64,000 nucleotides of DNA, from contig NZ_FNUS01000007.1 in assembly GCF_900108025.1 (NCBI RefSeq), positions 62,001 to 126,000 of the forward strand. The letters are read 5' to 3'. Below the pieces are notes generated by a model. It did not search any database and was not told where the DNA came from. It saw nothing but the letters and a program-made list of their open reading frames with translations. The stretch comes from Halpernia humi. GTDB lineage: Bacteria; Bacteroidota; Bacteroidia; Flavobacteriales; Weeksellaceae. Below, in pieces: positions 1,004 through 60,928 of the stretch (its first letter is position 1; the number at the start of each line of letters is the position of its first letter). The translations under genes and the position numbers were made by a program.

Positions 1004-1067
1004 GCGCCCCGACTTGAGTGGAGCTCTCCGCCGCGGCGGAAGCGGGAACGGAAGGCGGAAAAGGCGC
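1004..1067. repeat. GC-rich palindromic repeat, copy A
   Basis: This 64-base GC-rich island lies in AT-rich DNA 84 bases before the DPP11 start. It has a terminal stem GCGCC/GGCGC, a conserved arm CCCCGACTTGAGTG, an internal perfect palindrome TCCGCCGCGGCGGA (1027-1040) and a second conserved arm GGAACGGAAGGCGGAAA. Copy B at 26531-26594 differs at one base. Copies C (10321) and D (38785) share both arms in reverse orientation. It lengthens the downstream open frame artificially. Confidence 0.85.
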
Positions 1068-10281: not shown

Positions 10282-10320
10282 TTAAAATTTTAAATTATGA
10301 ATTTTAAATTATTTTTTTGG

Positions 10321-10448
10321 GCAGCAATTTCCGCCTTCCGTTCCCAAAACGAGGAACGAGTTTCGATGATTCAAATAAAAAAAAATAAAATATTGAATCA
10401 ATCTTTTTTTCAAATGCAAAAAAAGGATTTCCACTCAAGTCGGGCTGC
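10321..10448. repeat. GC-rich palindromic repeat, copy C
   Basis: This 128-base copy carries the same arms as copies A and B but in reverse orientation (TTTCCGCCTTCCGTTCC on the left, CACTCAAGTCGGG on the right). Its terminal stem is GCAGC/GCTGC instead of GCGCC/GGCGC. The middle differs and forms its own hairpins (CGTTCC/GGAACG, and TGATTCAA at 10367 with TTGAATCA at 10393). Confidence 0.82.
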
Positions 10449-10484
10449 GTAAGATTCATGTTTTAAATTAAATAAAAATAAGCA

Positions 10485-26448: not shown

Positions 26449-26530
26449 ATTTTATGATTATTGATGAGTGATGAATGATGAGTGATGAAATTGCTTTTTA
26501 TAATAAAAACTTTGAAAATTGCGATAATCT

Positions 26531-26594
26531 GCGCCCCGACTTGAGTGAAGCTCTCCGCCGCGGCGGAAGCGGGAACGGAAGGCGGAAAAGGCGC
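26531..26594. repeat. GC-rich palindromic repeat, copy B
   Basis: This 64-base copy is identical to copy A (1004-1067) except for one base after the GAGTG arm. It lies in the gap between the SDR and the glycosidase genes, so it would be in the 5' leader of the latter or between genes of one transcript. Confidence 0.85.
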
Positions 26595-26649
26595 CCAAAA
26601 AAAATAATAAATACACATTCGACGAAATTACATAGACGCCCAAAAAATT

Positions 26650-27459
26650 TTATCCATTTTCTGAAAAACTCTCAAAAGTCGTCATTGCGCCGTCTATAAA
26701 AATGCTGGTTCCTGTGATATAATCTGCGGCATCGCTCGCTAAGAATACGGCCAAGTTGCCAATGTCTTGTGGTTGGCCAATTCTGTTGTAAGGAATAAGC
26801 GACATTAACGAATTTAGTGCTTCTGGCGTGCTCCAAGCATTTTTGTTGATATTTGTTTGAATTGCGCCCGGACAAATTGAATTGACACGGATTTTTCTAT
26901 CGCCAAATTCTTGCGCCAAAGTTTGCATCAACATTCGGATGGCGCCTTTGCTAGAAGCGTAATTGGCGTGACCTGCCCACGGAATAATTTCGTGAACGGA
27001 AGAAATATGAATGATTTTTCCACAAGCGACGGAACGACTTTCATCGATGCCGCGTTTTAAAAATTCTTTTATGGCTTCTCTTGCGCACAAAAATTGACCT
27101 GTTAAATTGACACCAATCACCGCGTTCCATTGGTCTAAAGTCATTTCCGTGAATTTTGCATCTTTTTGAATTCCAGCGTTATTGACTAAAATATCTACGG
27201 TTCCGTAAGCGGAAACGACGTCTGCAAACATTTTAATCACTTCATCTTCTTTGGATACATCGCATTTGCATAACATTCCTTTTCCACCTTCGTCGGTAAT
27301 TTCTTTTAAAACTGTTTCGGCGTCTGAAAGTGCGCCATCAAAAGGATAATTGATGATTACTGTGGCGCCAGATTTTGCCATTGATTTTGCAATTCCGGCA
27401 CCGATACCGCTTGAAGAACCCGTGATAAGCGCCACTTGATTGGCAAGAGATATTTCCAT
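26650..27459 (-). CDS. SDR oxidoreductase, glucose 1-dehydrogenase-like
   Basis: This 269-residue short-chain dehydrogenase has the cofactor motif TGSSSGIGAGIA, NNAGIQ, a Ser in HISS and the catalytic pair in YASSKGA. It ends in the conserved TGTSIFIDGAMT. The closest named group is glucose 1-dehydrogenase; the acidic/basic discriminator region (INYPFD) does not settle NAD against NADP. A TATTTTTG box lies at 27476-27483. The GH63 gene downstream suggests a sugar substrate, by inference only. Confidence 0.85.
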   Translation of the reverse strand: MEISLANQVALITGSSSGIGAGIAKSMAKSGATVIINYPFDGALSDAETVLKEITDEGGKGMLCKCDVSKEDEVIKMFADVVSAYGTVDILVNNAGIQKDAKFTEMTLDQWNAVIGVNLTGQFLCAREAIKEFLKRGIDESRSVACGKIIHISSVHEIIPWAGHANYASSKGAIRMLMQTLAQEFGDRKIRVNSICPGAIQTNINKNAWSTPEALNSLMSLIPYNRIGQPQDIGNLAVFLASDAADYITGTSIFIDGAMTTFESFSENG

Positions 27460-35597: not shown

Positions 35598-38500
35598 ATG
35601 CTTAATAAAATTATAGAGTTCTCTATAAAGAATAAACTTATTGTTGTCTTAATGACACTCGGTTTAATTATTTATGGACTTTTCGAACTCACAAAACTTC
35701 CTATTGATGCCGTTCCCGACATTACAGATAATCAGGTTCAGATTATCACGGTTTCGCCAAGTTTGGGTGCACCAGATGTAGAACGTTTCATTACTTTTCC
35801 TTTAGAACAAATTAATTACAATATACAGGGAATCAAGCAAATGCGAAGTTTTTCGCGTTTTGGCTTATCAGTTATCACCATCGTTTTTAAAGATGATGTG
35901 GATTTGTATTTGGCTCGTCAACAAGTTTCAGAACGTTTGCAACAAATTTCAAAAGATATTCCAGCCAATTTAGGCGTTCCACAAATGGCGCCAATTTCCA
36001 CAGGATTAGGTGAAATTTATCAATATGTTGTTCGTCCCAAAAAAGGATTTGAACACCGCTATAATCCTATGGAATTACGAACCATTCAAGATTGGATTGT
36101 TCGCCGACAATTACTCGGAACACCGGGCGTTGCAGATGTTGCGAGTTTTGGTGGAAATCTAAAACAATATGAAGTCGCCATTAATCCAGCCATTTTGAAA
36201 TCAATGGGCGTTACGATTTCCGAAGTTTTTAGTGCGCTTCAAAAAAACAATCAAAATACGGGTGGCGCTTATATTGAAAAAGGACCAAGTGTTTTATTCA
36301 TTAGAACGGAAGGTTTAATGAATAAAATCCCAGATATTGAAAATACGGTTGTTAAAAATTTACCAGACGGAACACCGATTTTAATAAAAAATATCGGAAA
36401 AGTTCAGTATGGAAAAGCCATCAGATACGGCGCTATGACTTACAACGGGAAAGGCGAAGTTGCTGGTGCCGTTGTAATGATGATGAAAGGTGCGAATTCA
36501 AATGAGGTTATAAAAGAAGTAAAAACAAAAATTGCAGAAATCCAAAAAACTCTTCCCGAAGGTGTAAAAATAGACGCATTTCTAGACCGAACCAAAATGG
36601 TAGATAACGCCATTGGAACTGTAAGCAAAAATTTAATGGAAGGGGCGTTAATCGTGGTTTTTGTTCTGGTTCTATTTCTTGGAAATTTCCGTGCAGGTTT
36701 ATTGGTGGCGTCGGTCATTCCTTTGGCGATGCTTTTTGCGATTATTATGATGAACATTTTCGGGGTTTCTGGGAATTTAATGAGTTTAGGCGCGTTGGAT
36801 TTTGGTTTAATTGTAGATGGCGCCGTCATAATTGTCGAGGCTATTTTACACCGATTTAAACATTTGAATAAATTTCAAGACAAAAAGATTTCACAAGAAA
36901 TGATGAACCGAGAGGTTTACACTTCTTCTAGCACGATGATGAATTCTGCGGTTTTTGGGCAAATTATTATCTTAATAGTTTACTTACCGATTTTAACCTT
37001 GCAAGGCATTGAAGGAAAAATGTTCAAACCAATGGCGCAAACGGTAATTTTCGCATTACTTGGTGCGTTTATACTTTCTCTGACCTACATTCCGATGATG
37101 AGTTCCATATTTTTATCTAAAAAAATAAATAATAAGAAAAACTTTTCTGATAAATTAATGGACAAATTAGAAAGTTTTTACCACAAAACTTTAAATAGAG
37201 TTTTAAAAATTCCAAATATAATTTTCTTCAGCGTTGTTGGTTTATTTTTCATTTCATTATTTGTAATGTCAAGATTAGGTGGCGAATTTATCCCAACACT
37301 TCCCGAAGGCGATTTTGCAGTTGACACGAGAGTTTTACCCGGAAGTAATCTTAAAACTTCCACAGACGCTATTTTAAAATCACAGCAAGTTTTATTAAAG
37401 AAATTCCCAGAAATTGAAAAAATTGTCGGGAAAACAGGAAGTAGCGAAATCCCAACCGATCCGATGCCGATTGATGCAAGTGACATGATGATTATTTTAA
37501 AACCAAGAAAAGAATGGAAATCTGCAACTACTTATGACGATCTCGCCGCAAAAATGTCTGCTGAATTAAAGAAAAATATTATAGGCGTAACCTACTCTTT
37601 TCAATATCCTGTTGCCATGCGTTTTAATGAATTAATGACAGGCGCAAGGCAAGATGTCGTTTGTAAAATTTACGGCGAAAATCTGGATACTTTAAAAGTT
37701 TATGCAGAGAAATTGGGTGCGATTTCGAAGAAAATTAACGGCGCTCAAAATATTTATGTAGAACCAATTTCTGGAATGCCGCAAATCGTGATTTCATATA
37801 AACGTGACGCACTTTCGCAATACGGACTCAATGTAGAAGATGTCAATAATATTGTAAACACGGCTTTTGCAGGGCAATCCACAGGTTCTGTGTTTGAAGG
37901 CGAGAAGAAATTTGATTTGGTCGTTCGTTTAGATGGCGAAAAAAGGAAAAATGTGGAAGATGTGAATAATTTATTGATTTCTACACCTTCAGGAATTGAA
38001 ATTCCGTTGAGTTCTGTCGCAAATGTTGAGTTAAAAGAAAGCGTCAACCAAATCCAAAGGGAAAATGCGCAGCGCAGAATTATTGTTGGTTTTAATGTAC
38101 GAAACCGCGATATTCAGTCCACTGTAGAAGACTTGCAAAAAGTAGTCGATAAAGATTTTAAACTTCCACCTGGATATTCTATTACTTATGGTGGAACTTT
38201 TGAGAATCTACAACAGGCAAAATCCCGTTTGATGATCGCCGTTCCAATTAGTTTACTATTGATTTTATTGATGCTTTATTTTGCCTTTAATTCCATAAAA
38301 TACGGTTTACTGATTTTTTCTGCCATTCCACTTTCGGCAATTGGCGGCATTCTCTCACTTTGGATCCGTGGGATGAATTTTAGTATTTCCGCAGGTGTCG
38401 GTTTTATCGCACTTTTCGGGGTTGCCGTTTTAAATGGAATTGTCTTAATCGCAGAATTTAATCGCCAAAAGAAATTACATCCAGATTTAAAAGACGTGGT

Positions 38501-38774
38501 AAAAATTGGCGGAAAAACCAGATTACGTCCAGTTTTGATGACCGCTTTTGTGGCATCTTTAGGTTTTTTACCAATGGCATTAAGCACCGGAGAAGGCGCG
38601 GAAGTTCAACGTCCTTTAGCAACTGTAGTAATAGGCGGTTTGCTTTTAGCGACCTTTCTCACACTTTATTTTTTACCCTTAATTTATATTTGGTTTGAAG
38701 AACATTTCCCAGATACGCGTAAAAAAATTGTGGAAGTTACAGATGAAGAAGATGGTTACAATGATGAAGTTTAG
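35598..38774 (+). CDS. Heavy-metal efflux RND pump, CusA/CzcA family
   Basis: This inner-membrane proton-driven pump exports metal ions from periplasm or cytoplasm through a tripartite complex. The 1058 residues have 12 helices with two large periplasmic loops; the start (IEFSIKNKLIVVLMTLGLIIYGLFELTKLPIDAVPDITDNQVQI) and the LGALDFGLIVDGAVIIVEA segment with the proton-relay Asp are typical of the heavy-metal subfamily. The channel and adaptor genes follow. Cu/Ag and Zn/Co/Cd specificity cannot be separated with certainty. Confidence 0.93.
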   Translation: MLNKIIEFSIKNKLIVVLMTLGLIIYGLFELTKLPIDAVPDITDNQVQIITVSPSLGAPDVERFITFPLEQINYNIQGIKQMRSFSRFGLSVITIVFKDDVDLYLARQQVSERLQQISKDIPANLGVPQMAPISTGLGEIYQYVVRPKKGFEHRYNPMELRTIQDWIVRRQLLGTPGVADVASFGGNLKQYEVAINPAILKSMGVTISEVFSALQKNNQNTGGAYIEKGPSVLFIRTEGLMNKIPDIENTVVKNLPDGTPILIKNIGKVQYGKAIRYGAMTYNGKGEVAGAVVMMMKGANSNEVIKEVKTKIAEIQKTLPEGVKIDAFLDRTKMVDNAIGTVSKNLMEGALIVVFVLVLFLGNFRAGLLVASVIPLAMLFAIIMMNIFGVSGNLMSLGALDFGLIVDGAVIIVEAILHRFKHLNKFQDKKISQEMMNREVYTSSSTMMNSAVFGQIIILIVYLPILTLQGIEGKMFKPMAQTVIFALLGAFILSLTYIPMMSSIFLSKKINNKKNFSDKLMDKLESFYHKTLNRVLKIPNIIFFSVVGLFFISLFVMSRLGGEFIPTLPEGDFAVDTRVLPGSNLKTSTDAILKSQQVLLKKFPEIEKIVGKTGSSEIPTDPMPIDASDMMIILKPRKEWKSATTYDDLAAKMSAELKKNIIGVTYSFQYPVAMRFNELMTGARQDVVCKIYGENLDTLKVYAEKLGAISKKINGAQNIYVEPISGMPQIVISYKRDALSQYGLNVEDVNNIVNTAFAGQSTGSVFEGEKKFDLVVRLDGEKRKNVEDVNNLLISTPSGIEIPLSSVANVELKESVNQIQRENAQRRIIVGFNVRNRDIQSTVEDLQKVVDKDFKLPPGYSITYGGTFENLQQAKSRLMIAVPISLLLILLMLYFAFNSIKYGLLIFSAIPLSAIGGILSLWIRGMNFSISAGVGFIALFGVAVLNGIVLIAEFNRQKKLHPDLKDVVKIGGKTRLRPVLMTAFVASLGFLPMALSTGEGAEVQRPLATVVIGGLLLATFLTLYFLPLIYIWFEEHFPDTRKKIVEVTDEEDGYNDEV

Positions 38775-38784
38775 AATTTTTTGG

Positions 38785-38866
38785 GCAGCAATTTCCGCCT
38801 TCCGTTCCCGCTTTTTTTTGTTCCGCTTTGCTACACAAAAAAAGAGCTGCACTCAAGTCGGGCTGC
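38785..38866. repeat. GC-rich palindromic repeat, copy D, inside the efflux operon
   Basis: This 82-base copy lies between the pump stop codon and the channel gene. It has terminal stem GCAGC/GCTGC, arms TTTCCGCCTTCCGTTCC and CACTCAAGTCGGG, and a middle hairpin (CTTTTTTTTGT with ACAAAAAAAG). It shares its terminal stem with copy C. Confidence 0.83.
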
Positions 38867-38907
38867 AGGTTTTCGCAACCAACAAGTTTAATTAAATAAA
38901 AAAAACA

Positions 38908-57892: not shown

Positions 57893-57995
57893 AGCCGGGA
57901 ACCTGCTATCCGCTGCAATCTGTCATTGCAAGAAAAGATCAAATCCGTTGAATTTTCTCGCATGCAATGCCAGGATTTCCGCTTCTATCAGGGCT
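57893..57995. repeat. Structured intergenic repeat (AGCC...GGGCT type)
   Basis: The element starts AGCCGGGAACCTGCTATCCGC and ends GGATTTCCGCTTCTATCAGGGCT, so the ends can pair (AGCC/GGGCT). In the middle CATTGC (57924) pairs with GCAATG (57964), with GAAAA and TTTTC inside. I recall similar units in many flavobacterial intergenic regions. It resembles the GC-rich family in layout and in the AGGATTTCC-CT arm. It is the main content of the gap 57772-58041. Confidence 0.65.
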
Positions 57996-58041
57996 AGTTA
58001 AGCTTCGGCTTTTTAATCAAGTTTTTTGTTCGTTTTTAAAT

Positions 58042-60484: not shown

Positions 60485-60928
60485 TTATAAAAAATATTTT
60501 TCATCAAATTCAATTTCATTTTCTTTTAGCAATCTGCGGTATTCTTTTTCGAAATCTTCGTTGAGGTGGTGTTTCTTCTGATTTTTAATGTAATTGATAA
60601 CTACATCTTTATCATTAATAGAATAGGTAAATGCACCATAACCTTGCTGCCACTCATCAAAAAGAGGAAATAAACCGCTCTGTTTCATCCAAAGATTACT
60701 AGCCACTTTAATATCTTTCACCAAATCGCTTAATCTAATAGTTGGGTGTAAACTTGTGAAAATATGCAAATGATCAGGCATTCCATTAATTCTATATAAA
60801 GTGCATTTTTTATTTTTTATAATTCCCCAAATGTATTTGTAAAGTTCTTCTTCATGCTCAATGTTAATCACTGATTTTCTATATTTTGTAGAAAATATTA
60901 TATGATAATATATTTGCGTGTAACTCAT
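60485..60928 (-). CDS. tnpA: IS200/REP-associated tyrosine transposase
   Basis: This single-strand transposase of the Y1-HUH class has 147 residues. The HUH motif is PDHLHIF (His 53 and His 55), and the catalytic Tyr 113 lies in INYIKNQKKHH. It is intact and starts with the common SYTQIYYHIIFSTKYRK. It is flanked by CCGTA/TACGG hairpins on both sides, as expected for elements whose ends are recognised as folded single strands. No accessory tnpB gene is present. Confidence 0.93.
   Translation of the reverse strand: MSYTQIYYHIIFSTKYRKSVINIEHEEELYKYIWGIIKNKKCTLYRINGMPDHLHIFTSLHPTIRLSDLVKDIKVASNLWMKQSGLFPLFDEWQQGYGAFTYSINDKDVVINYIKNQKKHHLNEDFEKEYRRLLKENEIEFDEKYFL

Follow-up and report, generated by a model that had tools for sequence, protein, structure and literature searches.

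Four palindromic repeats in the window (the whole stretch of Halpernia humi DNA analysed here, 64,000 nt) belong to a family, R1, which is a divergent sister subfamily of Flavo-1 (RF01705) but not a member of it by Rfam's rule. We take R1, with a probability of roughly 0.6, to be a Weeksellaceae subfamily of dispersed, non-coding DNA repeats of ~80–140 nt that are defined by their structure and are recognised and copied as folded DNA. A sequence-only reading of the window had found no name for the family; covariance-model matches in both directions connect it to Flavo-1, which was already known and is functionally unexplained, the R1 sister subfamily being new. The copies share one fold, the family extends far beyond the window, and at orthologous sites the outer stem stays with its site while the tip changes.

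Fold and covariation of R1

All four copies that had been picked out by eye (A–D) are present with exact arms and with the terminal stems ascribed to them, A and B having GCGCC/GGCGC, C and D GCAGC/GCTGC. The left arm has four exact matches in the window, the fifth best having three mismatches and shuffles giving a mean of 0.28, and the covariance-model search that the sequence-only reading had recommended matches exactly copies A–D (62–98.6 bits; next match, 13.8 bits). On the minus strand, copy A spans 998–1075 (whole model match, 88.3 bits), with outer stem 1004–1008 paired to 1063–1067, arms 1008–1020 and 1045–1060, and inner hairpin 1023–1043, and copy B spans 26525–26602 (86.6 bits), with outer stem 26531–26535 paired to 26590–26594 and arms 26535–26547 and 26572–26587. 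On the plus strand, copy C spans 10313–10454 (62 bits), with outer stem 10321–10325 paired to 10444–10448 and arms 10329–10344 and 10432–10444, and copy D spans 38777–38872 (98.6 bits), with outer stem 38785–38789 paired to 38862–38866, arms 38793–38808 and 38850–38862, and inner hairpin 38810–38847. In copy C an extra repeat, AAAACGAGGAACGAGTTT.., separates the left arm from the AATCTTTTT../..AAAAAGGATT hairpin; a repeat AAAACGAGGAACGAGTTTCGATGA.. between left arm and inner hairpin is seen at window positions 10346–10390 and in L001, L022 and L330, which are copies of two species. The description of the repeats as GC-rich fits A and B (62%) and D (47%), not C (35%, with the window at 33%).

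RNAfold predictions for two copies and an alignment of 83 exact-arm copies give one fold, composed of an outer stem, an arm helix with internal mismatches and an inner hairpin. The arms are no unpaired spacers but pair with each other in an imperfect helix between the outer stem and the inner hairpin. The proposal that the ends fold together is supported by two varying outer pairs, double-changed in 18 and 25 of the 83 copies, and the hairpins proposed for the middle by an inner helix paired in 98.7% of cells. Uncompensated terminal changes, named beforehand as counter-evidence, are uncommon, the outer helix being 95.9–96.9% paired and its innermost pair accounting for most exceptions. Covariation is seen in the outer and the inner helix, with 197 double-changed cells compared to 50.6 in shuffles and 98.5% of cells paired; the arm helix is invariant in this alignment because the 83 copies were chosen for exact arms. 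The covariance model R1 then recovered copies with changed arms, and among its matches (97 distinct rows of 99) seven of the eight arm pairs are changed on both sides. Over the whole structure, 352 cells are double-changed, compared to 89.4 in shuffles and a maximum of 42 in slid controls; this 97-row alignment was fitted to R1 and is biased towards the structure, but the paired changes are also visible by eye in the raw copies. Not all arm changes are compensated, L245 being an example. The arm-helix mismatch is never Watson-Crick in any of the 97 distinct rows (C.T 76, T.C 17, C.C 2, C.A 1, T.T 1), and the internal loops are kept, CC/TC in 91/97 and TCCC/TCC in 80/97. Together, these data define a fold in three parts: the outer stem and the imperfect arm helix both covary, the arm helix keeps its mismatches fixed, and the inner hairpin varies.

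Base pairs change with few intermediates. One arm pair is bimodal (T-A 68, C-G 28) with no G.T or A.C, as is a pair at the hairpin base (G-C 61, A-T 32, again with none), and all pairs together show 9 G.T and 16 A.C in 2106 cells. Among 26 tRNAs of the loci examined, G.U accounts for 46 of 567 pairs (Fisher p 2e-23 and 2e-19), the tRNAs being a single control and the cells of related copies non-independent. The wobbles do not point decisively to one strand (16 versus 9). Most combinations of modules occur; where one arm pair is C-G, the inner first pair is never A-T (0 versus 28). We take the scarce intermediates to mean either that paired changes arrive jointly, copied from a different repeat unit, or that Watson-Crick pairs are required in DNA; the scarcity of wobbles may in part reflect the relatedness of the copies and the model-fitted alignment.

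Family size and relation to Flavo-1

The count of four copies is correct for the window and far too low for the genome, where 14 copies have exact arms. The H. humi genome (G000, 3.12 Mb) contains 54 R1 matches at E≤0.01, consisting of 35 strong copies (≥53 bits), 15 canonical Flavo-1 copies and 4 weak matches, and in a congeneric sister species (G001) the arms occur 30 times with one free base allowed, 29 of them exact. The arms were found in at least 111 stretches, in records of Halpernia, Epilithonimonas, Kaistella, Chryseobacterium, Frigoriflavimonas, Flavobacterium and others. R1 matches are present in 34/60 Weeksellaceae genomes (best E <1e-12 in 27), some of the weak ones perhaps being canonical Flavo-1. 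Over 296 genomes of the order, 62 matched at E≤0.001, 37 of them from Weeksellaceae and 25 from elsewhere, and 22 of these 25 belong to one genus, g35 of family f3 (perhaps Flavobacterium); as 14 candidates were scored per genome, copy counts from this search are lower bounds.

Flavo-1 was described as an RNA (Weinberg et al., 2010, PMC2864571), is typed by Rfam as 'Gene; sRNA', and appears in a review in the section on the most abundant small RNAs without function (PMC9029176). The passages of PMC2864571, PMC9029176 and PMC9723704 that deal with it contain no description of a mobile or tip-swapping repeat. In a search of the window at Rfam's gathering level, the sole match is a canonical Flavo-1 copy at 57895–57999 on the minus strand (Rfam strand; 59.7 bits, cut-off 42). 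Above that cut-off there are 51 Flavo-1 copies in the H. humi genome, which is many for an sRNA gene. When its 54 R1 matches are scored with the Flavo-1 model, 15 lie above the cut-off, 7 are sub-threshold and 32 have no match; none of the 35 strong copies reaches 42 bits, and 7 of them match below it. Among the window copies, D scores 31.2 bits and C 18.1 bits, and A and B have no match; elsewhere, two R1 loci barely pass (L341, 42.6 bits; L355, 42.3 bits). In the direction from R1 to Flavo-1, R1 picks up Flavo-1 loci in genus g35 besides the 15 copies of H. humi, and 17 of 19 loci checked pass the gathering cut-off, namely all 16 chosen divergent loci and L355, and in the direction from Flavo-1 to R1, 10 of 16 chosen R1 loci match at E≤1, one above and nine below the cut-off. 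No other Rfam family gave a relevant match to copy A at E≤10, and the left arm (15/16 letters) is absent from the literature searched, which included few subscription papers.

R1 and Flavo-1 share the order of helices and loops (three pairs, one mismatch, two to three pairs, loop, two pairs, loop, inner hairpin), related loop sequences, many copies and the same bacterial order. R1 copies differ in having a 5-bp covarying outer stem that is absent from the Rfam model, a third arm pair, the arms CTTCCGTT/CACTCAAG of the common form, and a co-orientation bias. Several canonical Flavo-1 copies of H. humi (L388–L397) share longer outer flanks, AGGAGCAAGACG..GAAGATT / AATTTCGG, which suggests a different outer module.

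Gene context and tips at orthologous sites

R1 copies are mostly extragenic, with ORF overlap in 10/109 and 14/122 copies under crude ORF calling that probably includes some spurious ORFs. Simple ORF calling served to assign neighbouring genes, the TTCCGCC strand counting as plus, and overlapping, edge, divergent and convergent cases were kept outside the ++ versus −− test. For the 30 best copies in the H. humi genome, ++ outnumbers −− by 15 to 4 (p 0.019), and for 67 other copies by 32 to 10 (p 0.0009), both p-values being optimistic because the sets include some orthologous sites; L355 in the second set comes from family f3 and the rest from Weeksellaceae as far as traceable. An earlier, partly overlapping set gave 57 versus 20, and a distant Flavo-1 set (25 copies, mostly genus g35) gave 8 versus 8. 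The co-oriented upstream gene ends 6–22 nt before the copy in 12/17 H. humi cases and 6–10 nt before it in 8/17, with distances taken to a position 6 nt into the R1 match. For copies B, C and D, both neighbouring genes run in the same orientation as the copy. Copy B lies ~50 nt downstream of the stop codon of gene 26650–27459 (minus strand), and copy D starts 3 nt beyond the stop of gene 35598–38774; copy A fell into the overlap class through an ORF that is probably spurious. The R1 subfamily thus prefers the sense strand of neighbouring genes, often just after the stop codon. An intrinsic terminator was considered and rejected: the consensus has its T-rich tract 5′ of the hairpin and no 3′ T-run, and the other strand has an A-rich tract after it.

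An all-against-all comparison of the flanks of 198 copies, with identical copies and copies within 120–800 bases of a locus end excluded, gave 56 orthologous pairs in 29 sites; the copies were found by arm pattern, so that strongly changed arms are missed. Tips are <60% identical in some pair at 11 of the 29 sites and ≥80% identical in 27/56 pairs. The clearest tip changes are those of L060/L126 (flanks 92–93% identical) and L090/L118 (flanks 95–97%), L118 having another repeat family inside. Outside the 11 sites, L068/L119 (tip identity 0.71) keeps a rare GCAAC/GTTGC outer stem and has the basal three hairpin pairs changed. Not every tip difference need be an exchange, as length changes lower identity. 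Where both flanks are ≥88% identical, 9/11 pairs keep the tip at ≥80% identity, and tip replacement is therefore not fast.

Between H. humi and its sister species, 11 of 16 H. humi copies have a same-orientation R1 copy beside a matching flank: both flanks match in 7 (one flank pair 682 bases apart) and one adjacent flank in 3, the eleventh being copy A, with one flank adjacent and the other 1.2 kb off. Of the remaining sites, L192 is empty in the sister species, and L150, L180, L183 and L190 were counted neither as occupied nor as empty. The type of outer stem (GCAG../..CTGC or GCGCC/GGCGC) agrees at 11/11 sites. The inner tip is clearly different at 7/11, with differing basal inner pairs in six and an entirely different tip on an unchanged base in L189; at the other four, like stems carry other loops in three (one with an inserted repeat) and the tip is nearly unchanged in one. 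The window copies included in this comparison, A, B and D, have the same outer stem and another tip in the sister species. Furthermore, L182, L184 and L188 have orthologues with compensated arm changes, and L186, L187 and L189 have orthologues that differ in mismatch polarity. At orthologous sites, then, the outer stem stays, and frequently the inner hairpin, or a group of arm pairs, differs en bloc.

Tips are shared (≥80% identity) by 23% of 1215 pairs within one labelled species, versus 8.6% of 3000 sampled pairs from different species and different sites. For the same site in different species the share is 40% of 45 pairs, and 82% of 11 at close flanks; inheritance by site is thus visible too, and fast homogenisation is not claimed. 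Two further kinds of repeat accompany the copies. A short sibling repeat, which shares the 5′ end (TTTTTATGGCAGACATTTGACTACGTCGAATGC) but has another hairpin, occurs in the left flanks of L150 and L192/L014 and also in L328 and L335, several times in tandem and directly 5′ of an R1 copy, forming BIME-like composites. In L010 and L012 (G000:C5:245281, C10:247877), a different palindromic repeat, CATTGCGA..GAAGCAATC, is nested in the inner hairpin.

Proposed copying as folded DNA and its alternatives

We infer recognition at the DNA level and a copying mechanism, in which the folded single strand would be recognised as DNA by a trans-acting enzyme or a repair process, and this enzyme or process would copy whole units, or the hairpin tip alone, from copy to copy. 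Transcribed copies would, like REPs, give the mRNA a stable hairpin at its 3′ end. The R1 system would work like REP/BIME, yet by the tests made appears to be none. Compared with REP/BIME sequences as characterised in passages of PMC6006769, R1 copies are likewise mostly extragenic, palindromic, multicopy and near gene 3′ ends, but they are longer, have a variable hairpin tip and were not found flanking RAYT genes. Their 5′ consensus is TTWTTTGGGC (126 aligned copies), and the GT[AG]G foot of REPs is absent. Integron attC sites are imperfect hairpins with a conserved base, mismatches and a variable terminal structure, all of which R1 copies have as well; unlike attC sites, R1 shows no attC core motif by eye, and no array was seen. 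Neither an autonomous element nor a recombinase or target-site duplication turned up; the empty sites (joined flanks) are too diverged for clean boundaries, and a filled Epilithonimonas site has extra bases downstream. The other counter-evidence named beforehand, that the units are remnants of one IS end, gained no support from these data.

Spread of R1 as a REP family by a RAYT, for instance of the Bacteroidetes subclass 2.6, which passages of PMC6006769 describe as flanked by atypical secondary structures, appears very improbable to us, despite a copy number, position and structure that resemble those of REPs. RAYT and Y1 genes were searched for in the H. humi genome, in 60 and 148 family genomes and in the flanks of 35, 20 and 30 loci, and the association with a REP-type transposase that the sequence-only reading had suggested checking was not found there. 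No R1 match below E 0.5 occurs at the 35 Y1_Tnp loci, and at the 30 RAYT loci only the L286 copy falls below E 0.1. RAYTs with motifs matching those of PMC6006769 do exist in the family, homologues of one clade occurring in 49/148 genomes, including G036 (at least 68 R1 copies; RAYT at 153 bits), and there are two loose neighbours: an intact RAYT (L270/L286) has a weak R1 copy ~0.9 kb away (36.3 bits), and a RAYT pseudogene of H. humi with in-frame stops (L267, G000:C2:690908-691716) has a strong one ~1.5 kb away (82.6 bits). Against this, copy-rich genomes do without a match to the RAYT clade: G014, with 29 R1 copies, has no Y1_Tnp or RAYT match, and G001 and G008, with at least 69 copies each, have no RAYT-clade match at E≤1e-10 and one Y1_Tnp match each. 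Moreover, in the flanks of the 12 RAYT/Y1 loci inspected, other palindromes adjoin the genes, e.g. AACCTTGTCAAGGTT.. or GGATTTGCAATCCGTG.. A match ~0.2 kb from a RAYT (L279, 20.8 bits, E 0.0033) was set aside as a probable distant look-alike. At RAYT loci L286, L288, L289, L292, L294 and L296, the adjoining palindromes (AACCTTGTCAAGGTT, AACTTTGCCAAAGTT) are the loci's own, some seemingly inside the genes, and L292 also has long 15-bp tandem arrays. In the window itself, a Y1 transposase-domain gene of the Y..NQ..HH type (60485–60928, minus strand; subclass 1.2 by motif) has a GGCGGCCGCGAAGCGGCCG palindrome adjoining it.

A role in RNA would make R1 a 3′-UTR or intercistronic hairpin for mRNA stability or ribosome release, or an sRNA as the Rfam label has it, with the covariation reflecting ordinary RNA selection. 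The covariation is indeed strong, the co-orientation bias with the upstream gene and the short stop-to-element distances fit an RNA role too, and the internal loops, which consist mostly of pyrimidines when read on the TTCCGCC strand and are purine-rich on the Rfam strand, suit G.A pairs. We nevertheless regard this account as unlikely: the strand that shares the orientation of the genes is not the one used by Rfam, no orientation bias appears in the distant Flavo-1 set, and in F. psychrophilum Flavo-1 matches are, in passages of PMC9723704, indistinctly sense or antisense, many of them outside transcribed regions. Wobble pairs are 10–20 times rarer than in the tRNAs of the loci examined, and no T-tract follows the consensus hairpin on either strand, so that it is no intrinsic terminator. 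The paired changes could instead be a mutational by-product, with template switching at stalled replication copying one arm onto the other in single events, free of selection for the fold. Inverted repeats are hot spots of such events, and the paired changes show few intermediates; template switching would, however, erase mismatches, whereas the C.T/T.C position and the CC/TC and TCCC/TCC loops persist, and it cannot make wholly new tips, which leaves this account improbable as well.

Copy number, tip replacement and wobble-poor covariation together suggest a repeat that acts at the DNA level. More tentatively, and with less than even confidence, Flavo-1 and R1 might form one superfamily of structure-defined DNA repeats, not sRNA genes, with an enzyme-recognised hairpin base and interchangeable tips swapped in place, at modular sites after stop codons where the outer stem is inherited with the site and the tip is not. 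In practical terms, the R1 model recovers copies below Rfam's cut-off. The main value of the finding is that it puts the small-RNA label of Flavo-1 in question: if the DNA-level reading is true, that label would be misleading, and flavobacteria would hold an undescribed process that copies hairpins.
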